64,000 nt of DNA, taken from Dyadobacter chenhuakuii (lineage in GTDB: Bacteria > Bacteroidota > Bacteroidia > Cytophagales > Spirosomataceae). Every line of letters starts with the position of its first letter. Position 1 is the stretch's first letter. The notes under the pieces were generated by a model that was not told where the DNA came from, ran no database searches, and saw only the letters and a program-made list of their open reading frames with translations. The stretch covers positions 4,092,001 to 4,156,000 of the forward strand of contig NZ_CP098805.1 of assembly GCF_023821985.2 (NCBI RefSeq). The letters are read 5' to 3'. Positions 18,533 to 23,744 of the stretch are shown here, one piece after another. A program made the position numbers and the translations under genes.

Positions 18533-19474
18533 TTATTCCGGATCGGCTGCCATAGCGGGCTTTCTTTTTGCCAGCGAAACCATAACTCCTCCTCCTACGA
18601 TCAGCAACATGCCTGCGAACATAGAGAATGAAGGAATGGCCTCTCCCATGAAAAAACCGATCAGAACGGAGAACAGAATATTGGAATAACCAATGGCAGC
18701 AACGCGCCCGGCTTTGTCAAATGTGAAGGATTGCGTCAGCATTCTCTGACCCATTAGCGCCGTCAGTCCGAGCGCCAGAAAGCCAAGCCATTGCGAAATG
18801 TGAGTTGGCCAGGTGAATGTGCCAATCAGGAAATCCAGATTTTCCATAGGATAGTAAGTCCCGACGAGCATGGAAATAATGGGCATCACAATGCCGCTCA
18901 ACATAAAAGAAAGAATGATGGCGCGTGAGTCATAAACAACACCTAACTGCCTGATTGACAAATAAGAAATTGCTGTTAACAATGCATTGCCAAGCCCTAA
19001 GGCATTGTCCCGCAGCGAAATGGAAAGGTCGGGCCGGAAAACGAACAGGATGCCGGTAAAGCCAACAAAAATAGCTGCCCACTCACGGGAATTGAGCGTT
19101 TCGCCGATCAGCAGCCAGGATAGCAATGCGAGGAAAATGGGATAAGTGTATTGGTATGTGGAGGCGCGGCCAAGCCCCAACGTTTGTATCGCATAAAAAA
19201 GCATATACAACGACAATGTGCCCACAACGCCGCGGAAAATAAGCAGCCCCAGCTTGCCTCCCTGCTGCCTTACAGGACGTCGCCAAATGCTGGTGACTAC
19301 AAACACAACCCCAACAATGTTCCGGAAAAATACAAGCTGTACAATGTGGAAATCACGGCCGAGCCACTTGGAAATTGCGGAGGTGAGGGAAAAGAAAAAT
19401 GCAGCACCGAGCATCAGATAAATGCCTTTTTGCGAAGAAGTTGCAGTCGGATTTTGAGCAGGAGCAGCCAACAA
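18533..19474 (-). CDS. DMT-superfamily transporter (EamA domains)
   Basis: About 313 residues with ten hydrophobic segments and two EamA repeats, as in drug/metabolite transporters. The first is KGIYLMLGAAFFFSLTSAISKWLG; the second ends with FSMFAGMLLIVGGGVMVSLAKRK. The frame opens with TTG at 19472-19474; the first ATG, 20 codons inside, would cut into the first helix, so TTG is favoured but uncertain. The substrate is unknown. It is divergent from the cobalamin riboswitch, so it is not under riboswitch control. Confidence 0.82.
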   Translation of the reverse strand: MLAAPAQNPTATSSQKGIYLMLGAAFFFSLTSAISKWLGRDFHIVQLVFFRNIVGVVFVVTSIWRRPVRQQGGKLGLLIFRGVVGTLSLYMLFYAIQTLGLGRASTYQYTYPIFLALLSWLLIGETLNSREWAAIFVGFTGILFVFRPDLSISLRDNALGLGNALLTAISYLSIRQLGVVYDSRAIILSFMLSGIVMPIISMLVGTYYPMENLDFLIGTFTWPTHISQWLGFLALGLTALMGQRMLTQSFTFDKAGRVAAIGYSNILFSVLIGFFMGEAIPSFSMFAGMLLIVGGGVMVSLAKRKPAMAADPE

Positions 19475-19498: not shown

Positions 19499-19557
19499 AA
19501 GCATATCATACAGAAGATAAAGGATATGTTACCGCGTCGGAAATCCCGCCAATTCAC

Positions 19558-19565
19558 TACCTTTG
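19558..19565 (+). promoter_or_regulatory. -7 element TACCTTTG, candidate promoter of the B12 uptake operon
   Basis: An exact TAnnTTTG match placed just before the first conserved bases of the cobalamin riboswitch, as expected if the transcript begins near 19570. Confidence 0.5.
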
Positions 19566-19569
19566 CACC

Positions 19570-19745
19570 TTTGGCGCTGAAAGCTGCTTCAATGCGGCAT
19601 GAAGGCTTAATAGGGAATTCCGTTGAACCGGAAGCTGTCCCCGCAACTGTGAGTCTGTTTATATTGATCCAATCCCCTATGCCACTGTTCCTCGAACGGG
19701 AAGGCCACGGACCAAAAAGACGAGCCAGGAGACCTGCCAGAAGCT
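19570..19745 (+). ncRNA. Cobalamin riboswitch
   Basis: The conserved blocks appear in order: GGCTTAATAGGGAA near 19603-19618, CCGGAAGCTGTCCCCGCAA at 19628-19646, GCCACTG at 19681-19687, CGGGAAGGCCACGGAC at 19697-19712, and the B12 box AGCCAGGAGACCTGCC at 19723-19738. This is the adenosylcobalamin-class aptamer core. A short hairpin follows (TTTGTTTT against AAAACAAA, about 19757-19781) and may form part of the expression platform. It precedes a BtuB-like receptor and a BtuG-like lipoprotein, so the uptake genes are expected to be shut off when B12 is plentiful. The 334-base gap 19475-19808 holds nothing else. Confidence 0.95.
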
Positions 19746-19808
19746 GATCTATCAAATTTTGTTTTCGGAGGAAAAACAAAGCTGATAACGCTACATATTT
19801 GACACCAG

Positions 19809-21725
19809 GTGATTATTGACCGGAAGTTTTTTTTGGCTTTGACCATTGCCACATGGCTTTTCCGTCCGGAAATGCTCGTTGCACAGTCGGATAGCATTCG
19901 TTTGGAACCTATTATCGTAAAGGGTTTTGTTCCTGAAAAATTCATGAGCGGGCTCAAAATCCAAAAGTTCGATTCGGCGTCTCTGAATCTTTTCCGCTTC
20001 CAGAATATCAGCGAGCTGCTTTCACTTTACACGCCGATTGCATTTAAAAATTACGGCCCCGGTCAGCTTAATACGGCCTCTTTCCGCGGAACGTCGGCTA
20101 ACCATACCGCTGTGTTATGGAATGGTTTGAACATTAATTCTCCTATCCTTGGCCAGACAGATTATTCAACCATCCCAGTTACCGGTTTTGATCAGCTTTC
20201 TGTCCAATATGGCTCTGCTGCCAGCATTGTAGGCAGTGATGCCGTGGGTGGAAGTATTTTGCTGGGAAGCGCTCCATCGACCCAGCCTTTGCAGCTTTCA
20301 ATCGGTCGGCAGCAGGAAAGTTTCAACAACCACCAGACCCAGGTTACAGCCCGCTATGCGGCGGTGATCAGTGATCAGTGGAGCTTTTCAGGCAAGACAA
20401 ATGTGTATGACGGTCGTATGAACAACGATTTTCCATACACCGAGCGAAATCAATATACTGTTTTGCCATCCACTTCTTTCCAGCGCGGTCTGGTGCAGGA
20501 TTTGTTTTTCAATTCAAAAAATGATCATCAGATTTCGGCGCATGTATGGCTAACCCGTAACCGGCTCACGTTAACACCGGAAGACAAAGCTGGCCGCGAA
20601 CTGACCTTAACGGAGGCTTACAGGACCATGTTACGTTATCAATTTAAAGACTTCACAATCCGCACTTCGTGGGTGAGAGACATTATTGATTATGCCAAAG
20701 GTGATTATAGTCAGCTGGACCATGCGGTAACAGACAAGTTTTCAAACCGTGTTGAACGCGATTTTCAATTCAATGCAATTCAGATTAAAGCAGGAGGCGA
20801 ATGGGCACATTACCGAGCCCAGGTCGCTGGCTATGATAAAGCATTGGTGACAGAAAACAGAGGTGACATTTTTCTGTTAACGCGCTGGCAGGCCACCGCC
20901 CGACTGGTCATTTCTGCGAATTTAAGGCAGGCATTTGTAACTAAATTTGATCCGCCATTCACGCCTTCATTAGGAGCAGACTATTTTATAGTCCAAAAAG
21001 AAACCCATAATCTGAAATTAAAAGGCTCAATAGGAAGAAGTTACCGCGTGCCTACATTGAATGAACGCTTCTGGAAAGAACTCGGAAACCCGGATATCAG
21101 GCCGGAAAACGGGTGGAACAAAGAAGTTAGCCTCGAACAAAACATTGTTATCGATGCTAACCAAACATTTTCAGCTTCCCTGACGGCATATCACAACCGC
21201 ATTAAGGACTGGACTTATTGGAATCCTACGCAAAGTTACCGTGTAGAAAACTTGCAGCAAGTGCTCGCGCGTGGAATTGAAGCGCAGGCTGGGTGGCGGC
21301 ATCAGATAAATGACTGGAAATCAGGCATCAACCTAGGGTATGCGCTAAATAAAAGTGCTCAGGAAAAAGCTTATGATGCCTATTCCTCGGATATTATCGG
21401 CAAGCAGCTTGTATTTGTGCCGATGCATTCAGGAAATTTGAATGCATTTATCCAATATAAAAATACGAGGCTCACAGGTCAGGCGCAGACGATCAGCAAG
21501 CGTTTTAGCACATTTGATAATACGCAATTTTTAGAAGGATATACGCTCACAAATTTGCTGGCAGAACATACTTTTGTCTGGGATAAAATAAAAATGCGGT
21601 TGCAGGGACAGATCAATAATCTGGCAAACACGTTTTATCTAAATGTAAGAAACAATGCAATGCCTGGCAGAAGCTTTGCATTAAGTTTAATTTTAATTTA
21701 TGACCCGCCACATTCCGCAAAGTAA
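19809..21725 (+). CDS. btuB: TonB-dependent cobalamin receptor, BtuB-like
   Basis: 638 residues. The frame is closed by a TGA at 19800, so the start is the GTG at 19809, giving MIIDRKFFLALTIATWLF and a signal peptide cleaved near VAQS. The plug domain is clear: NISELLSLYTPIAFKNYG, TASFRGTSANHTAVLWNG and VQYGSAASIVGSDAVGGSILLG. The remainder is a beta-barrel ending in a strand with aromatic residues (SFALSLILIYDPP). There is no carboxypeptidase-like N-domain or SusC feature. The riboswitch immediately upstream identifies the likely substrate as cobalamin or a relative. It is followed by the BtuG-like gene after 51 nt. Confidence 0.88.
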   Translation: MIIDRKFFLALTIATWLFRPEMLVAQSDSIRLEPIIVKGFVPEKFMSGLKIQKFDSASLNLFRFQNISELLSLYTPIAFKNYGPGQLNTASFRGTSANHTAVLWNGLNINSPILGQTDYSTIPVTGFDQLSVQYGSAASIVGSDAVGGSILLGSAPSTQPLQLSIGRQQESFNNHQTQVTARYAAVISDQWSFSGKTNVYDGRMNNDFPYTERNQYTVLPSTSFQRGLVQDLFFNSKNDHQISAHVWLTRNRLTLTPEDKAGRELTLTEAYRTMLRYQFKDFTIRTSWVRDIIDYAKGDYSQLDHAVTDKFSNRVERDFQFNAIQIKAGGEWAHYRAQVAGYDKALVTENRGDIFLLTRWQATARLVISANLRQAFVTKFDPPFTPSLGADYFIVQKETHNLKLKGSIGRSYRVPTLNERFWKELGNPDIRPENGWNKEVSLEQNIVIDANQTFSASLTAYHNRIKDWTYWNPTQSYRVENLQQVLARGIEAQAGWRHQINDWKSGINLGYALNKSAQEKAYDAYSSDIIGKQLVFVPMHSGNLNAFIQYKNTRLTGQAQTISKRFSTFDNTQFLEGYTLTNLLAEHTFVWDKIKMRLQGQINNLANTFYLNVRNNAMPGRSFALSLILIYDPPHSAK

Positions 21726-21776
21726 TGTTTTACAAGAGGTTATGTGGCAAAAACTTTACAACTAATAAAGCAAAAA

Positions 21777-22859
21777 ATGAAAAAACAGTTATTCAGATTA
21801 GCATCTCTTACCTCTTTGTCTCTTTTCGCATGGTCGTGTAACCAAAGCGACCCGGCTCCGAAGGGTGATTATATCCAGGGTGTATTTGTGGTGAATGAAG
21901 GGAATTTCTCTCAAAATAACGGAGCGATCTCGTTCTTTACGAGAGAACAAACCACTGCGGAGATTGACATTTTCAACACGGCAAACGGAACTACATTGAA
22001 AGGCGGCGTGCAGGATTATGTGGCCCTGGACGCAACCGGGATCATTCTTGTGGACAATATGTCTGCCGGCCAGGATAAGGTTGAGATTGTCAACAGCAAC
22101 ACTTTCCAGAGAATTGCGACCATTGGCGCTCCGGAAATTGAGAATCCACGGGAAGTGGTTTTTGGGACCAACAACAAAGCATATGTGTCTTGCTGGGGAA
22201 CCAATGCCGATTTCAAATTCACGACCGGTTATGTAGCTGTCGTTGATTTAGTTACCAATAAAGTGGTTGACCAAATCGAGATCACATCGGGCGGGCCGGA
22301 AAATCTGGTTTTGAATAACGGCAAGTTGTTTGTGGGAAAGGTTTCCTATGGTGGGGGCACAACATTGACGGTGATCAATACGACCACAAACGCAATTGAT
22401 AAATCAATTTCATTTGAAAACGCACCAAACCCGATCGGGATTGATGCGGATGGAAAACTTTGGGTAAATGATGGCATTAAGGTCATTAAAATGAACCCTG
22501 ATTCTTACAATGCAGACGCTACATTGTCATTGGGAAGCGATGCGACCAAATCTGCATCCAACTTTGCTTTCAGCCCGGATAAGAGAACGGTTTTCTTTGT
22601 TCTGTCATACTTTGATGCTGCCGGCGAACATGGAGGAACTTATAAATTCGGCATCAGCGATGCGCAGGTGAATGTTACGACGCCATTAATCAAGAGAATT
22701 TTCACAGGTCTGGCAGTTGACCCTACGCAAGGGCTTTTGTATGCAGGTGTAACGCCTTCGTTCGCGCAGGCAGGTTATGCGCTCCGTTACCGCGCAGACG
22801 GATCACTTGTTGATTCAGTAAAAGTGAATGTTGCGCCAACAGGCTTCTTCTTCAAATAA
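21777..22859 (+). CDS. BtuG-like surface lipoprotein (YncE/DUF5074 beta-propeller)
   Basis: 360 residues from the ATG at 21777 (MKKQLFRLASLTSLSLFAWSC), with a lipoprotein signal and cysteine near residue 21. The body is made of repeated strands of the YncE/DUF5074 beta-propeller type: GVFVVNEGNFSQNNGAISFF, GYVAVVDLVTNKVVDQIEI, TTLTVINTTTNAIDKSI and NPIGIDADGKLWVNDG. In Bacteroides the lipoprotein BtuG is such a propeller, captures B12 at the cell surface and hands it to BtuB. Position directly after a riboswitch-controlled btuB supports the same role here. The propeller fold is well supported; B12 binding is inferred. Confidence 0.75.
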   Translation: MKKQLFRLASLTSLSLFAWSCNQSDPAPKGDYIQGVFVVNEGNFSQNNGAISFFTREQTTAEIDIFNTANGTTLKGGVQDYVALDATGIILVDNMSAGQDKVEIVNSNTFQRIATIGAPEIENPREVVFGTNNKAYVSCWGTNADFKFTTGYVAVVDLVTNKVVDQIEITSGGPENLVLNNGKLFVGKVSYGGGTTLTVINTTTNAIDKSISFENAPNPIGIDADGKLWVNDGIKVIKMNPDSYNADATLSLGSDATKSASNFAFSPDKRTVFFVLSYFDAAGEHGGTYKFGISDAQVNVTTPLIKRIFTGLAVDPTQGLLYAGVTPSFAQAGYALRYRADGSLVDSVKVNVAPTGFFFK

Positions 22860-22883
22860 CAGAAGGCATATTCATCACAAACG

Positions 22884-22914
22884 AAAAAAGTCTCCTTCGC
22901 GGGAGACTTTTTTT
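22884..22914. terminator. Bidirectional terminator after the B12 uptake operon
   Basis: AAGTCTCC and GGAGACTT arms (22888-22895 and 22902-22909) enclose a 6-base loop. An A-run precedes and a T-run follows, so it can serve both the BtuG-like gene and the convergent TPR gene. Confidence 0.8.
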
Positions 22915-22934
22915 ATGTATATCAAATTGAAAAC

Positions 22935-23675
22935 CTATTTGAAGAAACCTTGCGGATCCGGCTTCCTGGCTTTTAAAAGCTCCACAAAATCAAGGTTCAT
23001 CTGGTTAAAATCGAGCGATCTTCCTTTATGCAAATGCTCCCACGATTTATCAAGATCATTGAGATTGTAATGTAACAAAGCCAGGTTGTATTGGCCTAAT
23101 GCATAAGTAGAATCTATTGCAGTTGCCCTGTTAAGCAGTTCGGCCGCTTCATCCAGTTCTTCCTTTCGGCTTGTTATCGCGTACAATTTCAGATCAACGG
23201 TTGACAAATCGACAAGCAGCGGCACATTTTCACCCTGCAAACCAATTCCCCGGCTTAGCATTCTTTTGGCCTCCACCCAGTTTTCGCGCTGGTAGGAAAT
23301 AACGCCCAGGCCCCAATATGCTTCCACATTTTTATCATTGAGTAAATGCGCGAGATTGAAGCGATAGCAAGCGGTATCCAATGCTCCTTCCTGCAAATAT
23401 TCCCAGGCACGTGCGGTAAAAAAGCTGCTCGCCTCAGCGCGACTTGTAAATGACTTGTCGCATTCACTCAAAAAACGGATTTCCTCGTCAATCTGATCAG
23501 AAGTTTTGCTTACTTCCCCAAAAAGCGGGAGCACGCGTCTTTCTTTTAAATCTAAGGGCTTTTTTTGGGCAAGGTTCGTATCTGTATTCGGTCCGGCACT
23601 CGCGAGATGGGTGTTTTGTGCAAGGCCAAATACTGGGATAAGAATAGCAAGCCAAATAACAACGGACTCTTTCAT
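22935..23675 (-). CDS. Secreted TPR protein
   Basis: The ATG at 23675 gives MKESVVIWLAILIPVFGLAQ, a signal peptide; an ATG 13 codons upstream is less likely. About 246 residues. Tetratricopeptide-like helices are visible: FFTARAWEYLQEGALDTACYR, VEAYWGLGVISYQRENWVEAK and YALGQYNLALLHYNLNDLDKS. Probably a periplasmic scaffold; no specific role can be assigned. It ends convergently with the B12 operon and shares its terminator. Confidence 0.75.
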   Translation of the reverse strand: MKESVVIWLAILIPVFGLAQNTHLASAGPNTDTNLAQKKPLDLKERRVLPLFGEVSKTSDQIDEEIRFLSECDKSFTSRAEASSFFTARAWEYLQEGALDTACYRFNLAHLLNDKNVEAYWGLGVISYQRENWVEAKRMLSRGIGLQGENVPLLVDLSTVDLKLYAITSRKEELDEAAELLNRATAIDSTYALGQYNLALLHYNLNDLDKSWEHLHKGRSLDFNQMNLDFVELLKARKPDPQGFFK

Positions 23676-23744
23676 AGGTGACTTTAATAGAGAAACAGGT
23701 TTTCTATTGTCCAAGTTAAACGGTTTTATCTAAATAGTATTGCA

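Follow-up and report, generated by a model that had tools for sequence, protein, structure and literature searches.

A cobalamin riboswitch-linked btuB-btuG locus of Dyadobacter chenhuakuii and variants of the BtuG lid in Bacteroidota

The btuB-btuG locus and the B12 route of the genome

BtuG has so far been described from gut Bacteroides as a very tight B12 capture device. Wexler et al. 2018 (PMC6143338) report that, in 313 human gut strains, 106 of the 109 btuB operons contain btuG, and the sections of that study cited here give no BtuG homologue outside Bacteroidetes under its BlastP settings; the affinity of BtuG2 is described there as femtomolar, and as picomolar by the inference in PMC12751083. 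Abellon-Ruiz et al. 2023 (PMC10404256) solved BtuBG complexes of Bacteroides thetaiotaomicron (B. theta); in the parts drawn on here, BtuG2 makes 13 hydrogen bonds to cobalamin, all from blades 1 to 4, its residues W194, W272 and Y316 narrow the upper-ligand cavity, and loop 5A helps to hold the ligand. Loop EL8 of the transporter, in which Tyr538 of BtuB3 has a role, is required for B. theta to grow on B12 and has been proposed to expel the vitamin from BtuG (PMC10404256). A 64,000-nucleotide stretch of Dyadobacter chenhuakuii (contig NZ_CP098805.1, positions 4,092,001 to 4,156,000; hereafter the window) carries a btuB-btuG pair behind a cobalamin riboswitch, and is compared here with these systems.

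The pair is considered to form a riboswitch-controlled uptake system for B12 (corrinoids), of the BtuB-BtuG type, with a probability of roughly 0.9. The features of the locus, with lengths in amino acids (aa), are as follows.

19555..19755, + strand: cobalamin riboswitch aptamer (RF00174), full length, cmscan 90.2 bits, E=5.4e-21
19809..21725, + strand: BtuB, TonB-dependent cobalamin transporter with plug and barrel, 638 aa from GTG (putative start codon)
21198..21278, + strand: code for BtuB residues 464-490, around EL8 (W471-x-P473 signature, Tyr477), from the 84-BtuB alignment
21777..22859, + strand: BtuG, predicted DUF5074 propeller surface lipoprotein, 360 aa from ATG 21777, lipobox Cys21
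about 22884..22914, strand unassigned: terminator hairpin with an A run on one side and a T run on the other
18533..19474, strand opposite to btuB-btuG: EamA transporter gene
22935..23714, strand opposite to btuB-btuG: tetratricopeptide repeat (TPR) protein gene

The transporter has Pfam matches to PF07715 (plug; 47.9 bits) and PF00593 (barrel; 111.5 bits), and its closest solved relative by PDB sequence search is BtuB3 of B. theta (8p98, E=1.7e-52; also 8p97), followed by BtuB2 (8bmx, 1.3e-49), BtuB1 (8blw, 3e-19) and E. coli BtuB (4e-10). A Foldseek search with a fused BtuB-BtuG model likewise places 8p97_A, 8p98_A and 8bmx_C on top; the 50 rows shown contain outer-membrane transporters only and are therefore uninformative on the propeller. 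The protein is 97% identical to the BtuB of Dyadobacter alkalitolerans DSM 23607. It falls below the NCBIfam equivalog cut-offs for BtuB (TIGR01779, 93.4 vs 599.7 bits; NF007926, 57 vs 836 bits), and since NF007926 is named for BtuB proper, the window BtuB is not close to that type.

The only Pfam match of the lipoprotein at E 0.01 is PF16819 (DUF5074; 66.4 bits, cut-off 27.2). BtuG3 is its first solved match (8p97_B, E=1e-19) and BtuG2 the second; a profile built from 28 homologues returns BtuG3 at 313 bits (E=2e-92) and BtuG2 at 292-299 bits. The lipobox (...FAWSC) was recognised by eye; Cys21 is invariant across the homologue alignment A1, and a Cys fills the lipobox column in all 61 aligned BtuGs of the order and in 38 of 38 rows of BtuG alignment A5. 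Two further frames of the same genome, each above 1300 aa, contain weak DUF5074 propeller matches (G000:C1:1929681-1929998 and 2692130-2692612) and stand away from the identified B12 loci.

The riboswitch aptamer covers positions 1-189 of the 189-position RF00174 model, against a gathering threshold of 31.5 bits, and is the sole match in the window at the Rfam gathering threshold. The two genes share one reading frame across a gap of 51 bp, which folds no better than its shuffles (z=-0.36). Downstream of both, the region 22880-22920 folds at -17.2 kcal/mol (z=-5.56; none of 200 shuffles equals it); the evidence for a terminator lies in this fold, because a consensus terminator scan reports the 22884-22914 hairpin on the minus strand only and finds 4 terminator-like sites, the same as the shuffle mean of 4.0. 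The expression platform region (19745-19815) shows no fold beyond shuffles (z=-0.43), and 7 sigma-70-like sites compare with 6.1 expected, so that no promoter call was made. The initial annotation had described a full cobalamin riboswitch, a TonB-dependent receptor with plug and barrel and a 360-residue propeller lipoprotein, closed by a single terminator, and had named the proteins BtuB and a BtuG-like lipoprotein; the components are borne out and the assignment is supported by sequence, with the start of the unit corrected to 19555 and its end to about 22914.

The remainder of the genome (6.08 Mb, two contigs) encodes both MetH and methylmalonyl-CoA mutase, which score above NCBIfam cut-offs on the part read. 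Its only other cobalamin riboswitch (L002:1501-1642; G000:C1:372049-372190) lies upstream of metE; on the far side of this riboswitch stands a divergent TonB-dependent receptor gene with a CarboxypepD_reg domain. A BtuFCD-like ATP-binding cassette (ABC) operon, consisting of a periplasmic binding protein, a FecCD permease and an ATPase, lies at a separate site of the genome, where no riboswitch was matched. Two sets in other genomes of the order (L038, L039), each located behind a cobalamin riboswitch, share 51 to 74% identity with its permease and ATPase, and the one binding protein found in these sets is 55% identical to its own. CobS has no match in the genome, compared with matches in 10 of 14 genomes of the control, and GATase_3 gives a single match below cut-off, the remaining biosynthesis genes not having been searched; with the route genes present and CobS not found, the organism looks like a B12 user and importer rather than a maker.

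The sequence shows the riboswitch, the identity of the genes, their arrangement before one terminator, the conservation of the pair and the other genes of the route. For the rest of the proposed mechanism (exposure on the cell surface, binding of B12, docking of the lid, release by EL8 and the sign of the riboswitch response), work on Bacteroides is the basis. At low cellular B12 the riboswitch would permit expression of btuB and btuG; BtuG on the cell surface would bind corrinoid in the mouth of the propeller and sit as a lid over BtuB, and on closing of the lid, EL8 of BtuB would push the vitamin from BtuG into the barrel. TonB-driven transport would then deliver it to the periplasm and the BtuFCD-like ABC transporter to the cytoplasm; the imported B12 would serve MetH and methylmalonyl-CoA mutase. 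At high B12 the riboswitches would shut off both the importer and the B12-independent MetE.

The propeller pocket, loop EL8 and docking

The window BtuG retains the blade-1 loop residues of BtuG2 (N54, E55, G56, N57, F58 and N62; NEGNF...N) and has lost the blade-5A loop, including Y239. The BtuG2 stretch 228-262 is reduced from 35 residues to 23; among the 23 nearest rows of alignment A5 it measures 22-23 residues in 22 and 25 in one, while at least 28 residues are found in 13 of the other 15 rows. Within the order, the stretch has 26 residues or fewer in 19 of 61 BtuGs; the six-row clade of the window has the short form, and L033 and L067 from the same family have the loop (40 and 36 residues). 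The window BtuG is of a subtype without the blade-5A loop, in which corrinoid binding is expected mainly via blades 1-4 and is possibly weaker than in BtuG2.

Tyr477 of the window BtuB aligns with Tyr538 of BtuB3. Loop EL8 was compared in an alignment of 84 BtuBs, of which 70 are linked to BtuG, 4 to a DUF4465 protein alone and 10 to neither (here termed lid-less). At window position 471, 66 of the 70 BtuG-linked and 4 of the 4 DUF4465-linked rows have Trp, and at position 473, 65 of 70 and 3 of 4, respectively, have Pro; neither residue occurs at its position in any of the 10 lid-less BtuBs. The two columns were picked after the alignment was viewed, and the lid-less rows form one clade, so the association of EL8 with the lid may reflect ancestry and counts as one event. 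A regular expression for EL8 was also tried as a marker and was dropped owing to poor separation (60 of 70 with BtuG, 3 of 4 with DUF4465, 5 of 10 with neither).

Several observations weigh against the assignment of the locus as a B12 uptake unit of the BtuB-BtuG kind. None of the five named pocket aromatics of BtuG2 is identical in the window protein (W194 is V, Y239 is deleted, W272 is S, Y316 is T and Y335 is F); with the blade-5A loop also gone, the femtomolar affinity of BtuG2 is not to be assumed here. The changes at W194 and W272 represent no special loss, as few BtuGs of the order have either residue. Of the 61 BtuGs aligned, 50 have Y316, and at position 335 Phe is found in 35 and Tyr in 20. 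In the 28-homologue profile search, the archaeal-type surface-layer propeller 1l0q_A (186 bits, in five repeat stretches) outscores BtuG1 (170 bits), which indicates that the profile also senses generic propeller repeats; the 'YncE family protein' structures 8ptd/8ptf (158 bits) come next, and 9s6c (86 bits) after them. The ABC permease and ATPase lie below the curated NCBIfam BtuC/BtuD cut-offs, and iron transport by the two is for that reason a possibility, BtuC being the best name for the permease.

The predicted complex also counts on this side. For AlphaFold, the TAA stop of btuB was read as Gly to yield one read-through BtuB-BtuG chain, the genes being in one frame. The run with 91 alignment rows (18 paired besides the window) gave a mean predicted local distance difference test (pLDDT) of 90.9 and a predicted template modelling score (pTM) of 0.65; the run with 19 paired rows, the window row lacking its first 22 residues, gave 81.2 and 0.58. 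Both runs fold each domain without fixing their mutual docking. In TonB-dependent transporters a linker after the barrel begins at the periplasmic side, and docking in the fusion was possibly handicapped by this topology. The complex suggested for prediction in the initial annotation is accordingly obtained as two folded domains whose relative placement is not confident.

The lost blade-5A loop and upper-ligand aromatics, together with the unfixed docking, are the grounds for an alternative in which BtuB is the first or only binding site of B12, and BtuG, poor in loops, covers it as a lid but does not capture the vitamin with high affinity; this is considered unlikely. All 13 hydrogen bonds that BtuG2 makes to cobalamin involve blades 1 to 4, and the window protein has kept the blade-1 loop; few BtuGs of the order have W194 or W272, and EL8, on which growth of B. 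theta on B12 depends, is conserved. A B12 uptake unit with capture by BtuG is preferred.

Distribution of the pair and variants of the lid

The order was sampled with 118 genomes, including that of the window. A DUF5074 match is present in at least 84 of these and a cobalamin riboswitch in 101; the Pfam counts of DUF5074 are lower bounds, as four BtuGs of the order (L033, L045, L047, L051) were missed and were found by a profile of our own. Frames of at most 480 aa contain 94 DUF5074 matches, in 82 genomes; at least 72 of the 94, from 70 genomes, lie on the same strand and downstream of one of the 150 riboswitches listed for the order, at a distance of 0.2 to 6.2 kb; the remaining 22 do not. 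The distance is 1.9 to 3.3 kb, about the length of one btuB, in 53 of the 72.

Outside the window there are 71 paired places, and the 60 stretches fetched, which cover 62 of them, contain an intact BtuB upstream of BtuG in 53, a broken BtuB in 1 and no BtuB match in 6. In five of these last six, BtuG comes immediately after the riboswitch. Loci of this form, in which no BtuB was matched, are L053-L057 and also L045; a formiminotransferase-cyclodeaminase gene follows in L056. In the BtuB tree, 56 loci of the order other than the window have BtuG on the downstream side of BtuB. It also adjoins BtuB in 79 of 80 named loci ranging from Dyadobacter to Hymenobacter, Pontibacter, Algoriphagus and Thermonema (78 by an open reading frame rule, and L165 on reading, with a 355-aa BtuG in frame), a sample biased by its selection as best matches to a BtuG-linked query; the exception, L191, has a DUF4465 protein.

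Across the phylum, BtuG matches (E<=1e-10) occur in 162 of 296 genomes and the riboswitch in 288. Among the matches listed, a riboswitch is listed for the genomes of 56 of the 101 best BtuG matches; 43 of these 56 lie within 10 kb downstream of it, and 13 do not. Had the pair been missing from cobalamin loci elsewhere in the order, this would have spoken against the initial annotation; the counts for the order show it to be present. The wider suggestion of the annotation, a capture strategy general in the phylum, needs a qualifier, as BtuG matches reach 162 of the 296 genomes, ten BtuBs of the order are lid-less and some BtuGs of other classes are type IX-tailed. The window organism itself presumably lives outside the gut, judging by the habitat of the genus Dyadobacter.

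Import of another chelate such as a siderophore is very improbable. The xenosiderophore importer XusAB has the same architecture, a seven-bladed propeller lipoprotein lid (XusB) on a TonB-dependent transporter (PMC13142918), and parts of the BtuG2 pocket are not retained in the window; however, XusB is a DUF4374 protein by the same source and the window lipoprotein has no DUF4374 match in Pfam at E 0.01, the best relatives of the transporter in sequence and fold are BtuBs, and a cobalamin riboswitch precedes the operon and most homologues in the order.

Twenty genomes with a listed riboswitch have no short DUF5074 match. Nineteen of these riboswitch loci were inspected, mostly over about 8 kb each, and contain a BtuG found by our own profile in 4, BtuB without BtuG in 10, BtuB followed by DUF4465 in 3 and no BtuB in 2. 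For the ten, absence of BtuG refers to the locus beside BtuB; one of their genomes (G064) has a weak BtuG match (E=2.5e-15) in the phylum-wide search. The ten lid-less BtuBs (L034-L038, L041, L043, L044, L049, L050) form one branch of the 84-row tree, with a Shimodaira-Hasegawa approximate likelihood ratio test (SH-aLRT) value of 99 and none of 500 shuffles as clustered, in a tree built by a quick method with seven long end branches and many rows of odd composition. No DUF4465 protein was found by profile search in the ten loci; in five that were scanned, the neighbours include a diphthamide-synthase-like PP-loop gene (4 loci), DUF6580 (3) and CobT with CobS (2).

These ten riboswitch-linked BtuBs without an adjoining BtuG, and E. 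coli BtuB, which is not known to need a lid, could suggest that a lid-free BtuB and an unrelated YncE-like propeller share an operon in the window as independent genes; the adjacency in the named loci (biased) and in the 56 tree loci, and the finding that the BtuG-less BtuBs branch off by themselves and have no W-x-P in EL8, make such independent neighbours highly implausible compared with a functional BtuB-BtuG pair.

A DUF4465 protein follows BtuB directly, with no BtuG, in four loci (L040:5174-6136, L046:5094-6038, L048:5005-5949 and L191:6883-7848); the type IX tails of L040 and L046 exceed the Pfam cut-off, and that of L191 falls short of it. In five others, DUF4465 lies between btuB and btuG (L106:2763-4559, L107:3472-5091, L108:2353-4038, L109:4885-5859 and L110:4219-5601), and a type IX tail is present in three (L107, L108, L110) of the four of these proteins scanned with Pfam. 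The name BtuH was rejected for DUF4465 proteins, the literature name being BtuJ; those tested so far bind B12, according to the part of PMC13398666 cited here.

The anchor of BtuG varies as well. Nine long BtuGs (441-476 aa; L197-L200, L206-L209, L211), from four family codes outside the class of the window, each adjoin BtuB; all nine end in a type IX secretion system (T9SS) type A sorting domain above the TIGR04183 cut-off, begin with an apparently ordinary signal peptide (by eye), and lack the lipobox Cys in all six that were aligned. The 348-aa form in L201 has no such sorting domain. These proteins come from 16 loci elsewhere in the phylum that were chosen partly for a long frame.

Tentatively, the lid may be a modular part of Bacteroidota B12 importers, which would have no lid, a lipoprotein propeller, a type IX-secreted propeller or, in a few cases, a DUF4465 (BtuJ-type) protein; EL8 would mark barrels built for a lid, and the reduced pocket in the branch of the window would, compared with that of BtuG2, let go of B12 more readily or admit other corrinoids.

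Comparison with known systems

The btuB-btuG system described here is ordinary, and the pair is common in the order; the additions are modest, and consist of the pocket reduction in this branch, the lid-less BtuB clade, the type IX-tailed BtuG and the replacement of BtuG by DUF4465. No environmental or type IX-tailed BtuG was found described in literature searched by title and abstract, most subscription journals being outside its scope; B. theta BtuG2 has been used as a reagent in a soil study (PMC11287211). Competition in the gut is unlikely to be the only origin of BtuG, because BtuG stands beside BtuB in much of the order and carries another anchor elsewhere. The natural lid variants, in which the pocket loop is lost, the anchor swapped, or the lid absent or replaced, allow tests of the lid mechanism and of the role of EL8.

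E. coli BtuB has the same transporter fold as the window BtuB at 16-17% identity (Foldseek), and is not known to have a lid protein. XusA-XusB shares the combination of a TonB-dependent transporter and a propeller lipoprotein lid, but differs in its DUF4374 lid and siderophore ligand from the window, where the lid is DUF5074. BtuB1-BtuG1 of B. theta (BtuGH, 8blw) is also a TonB-dependent transporter with a propeller lipoprotein; BtuG1 is a 663-residue chain, described in PMC12751083 as a BtuG-BtuH fusion, whereas the window BtuG ends after the propeller. The closest likeness is with BtuB2-BtuG2 and BtuB3-BtuG3 (8bmx, 8p97, 8p98), in which btuB adjoins btuG under a cobalamin riboswitch and which share the plug and barrel, the DUF5074-type propeller lipoprotein, the blade-1 NEGNF loop and the EL8 W-x-P with its aromatic. 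The window unit is unlike these in comprising two genes only, with the BtuFCD-like operon elsewhere and free of a riboswitch match, and its BtuG is unlike BtuG2 in the deleted blade-5A loop and the five non-identical pocket aromatics.

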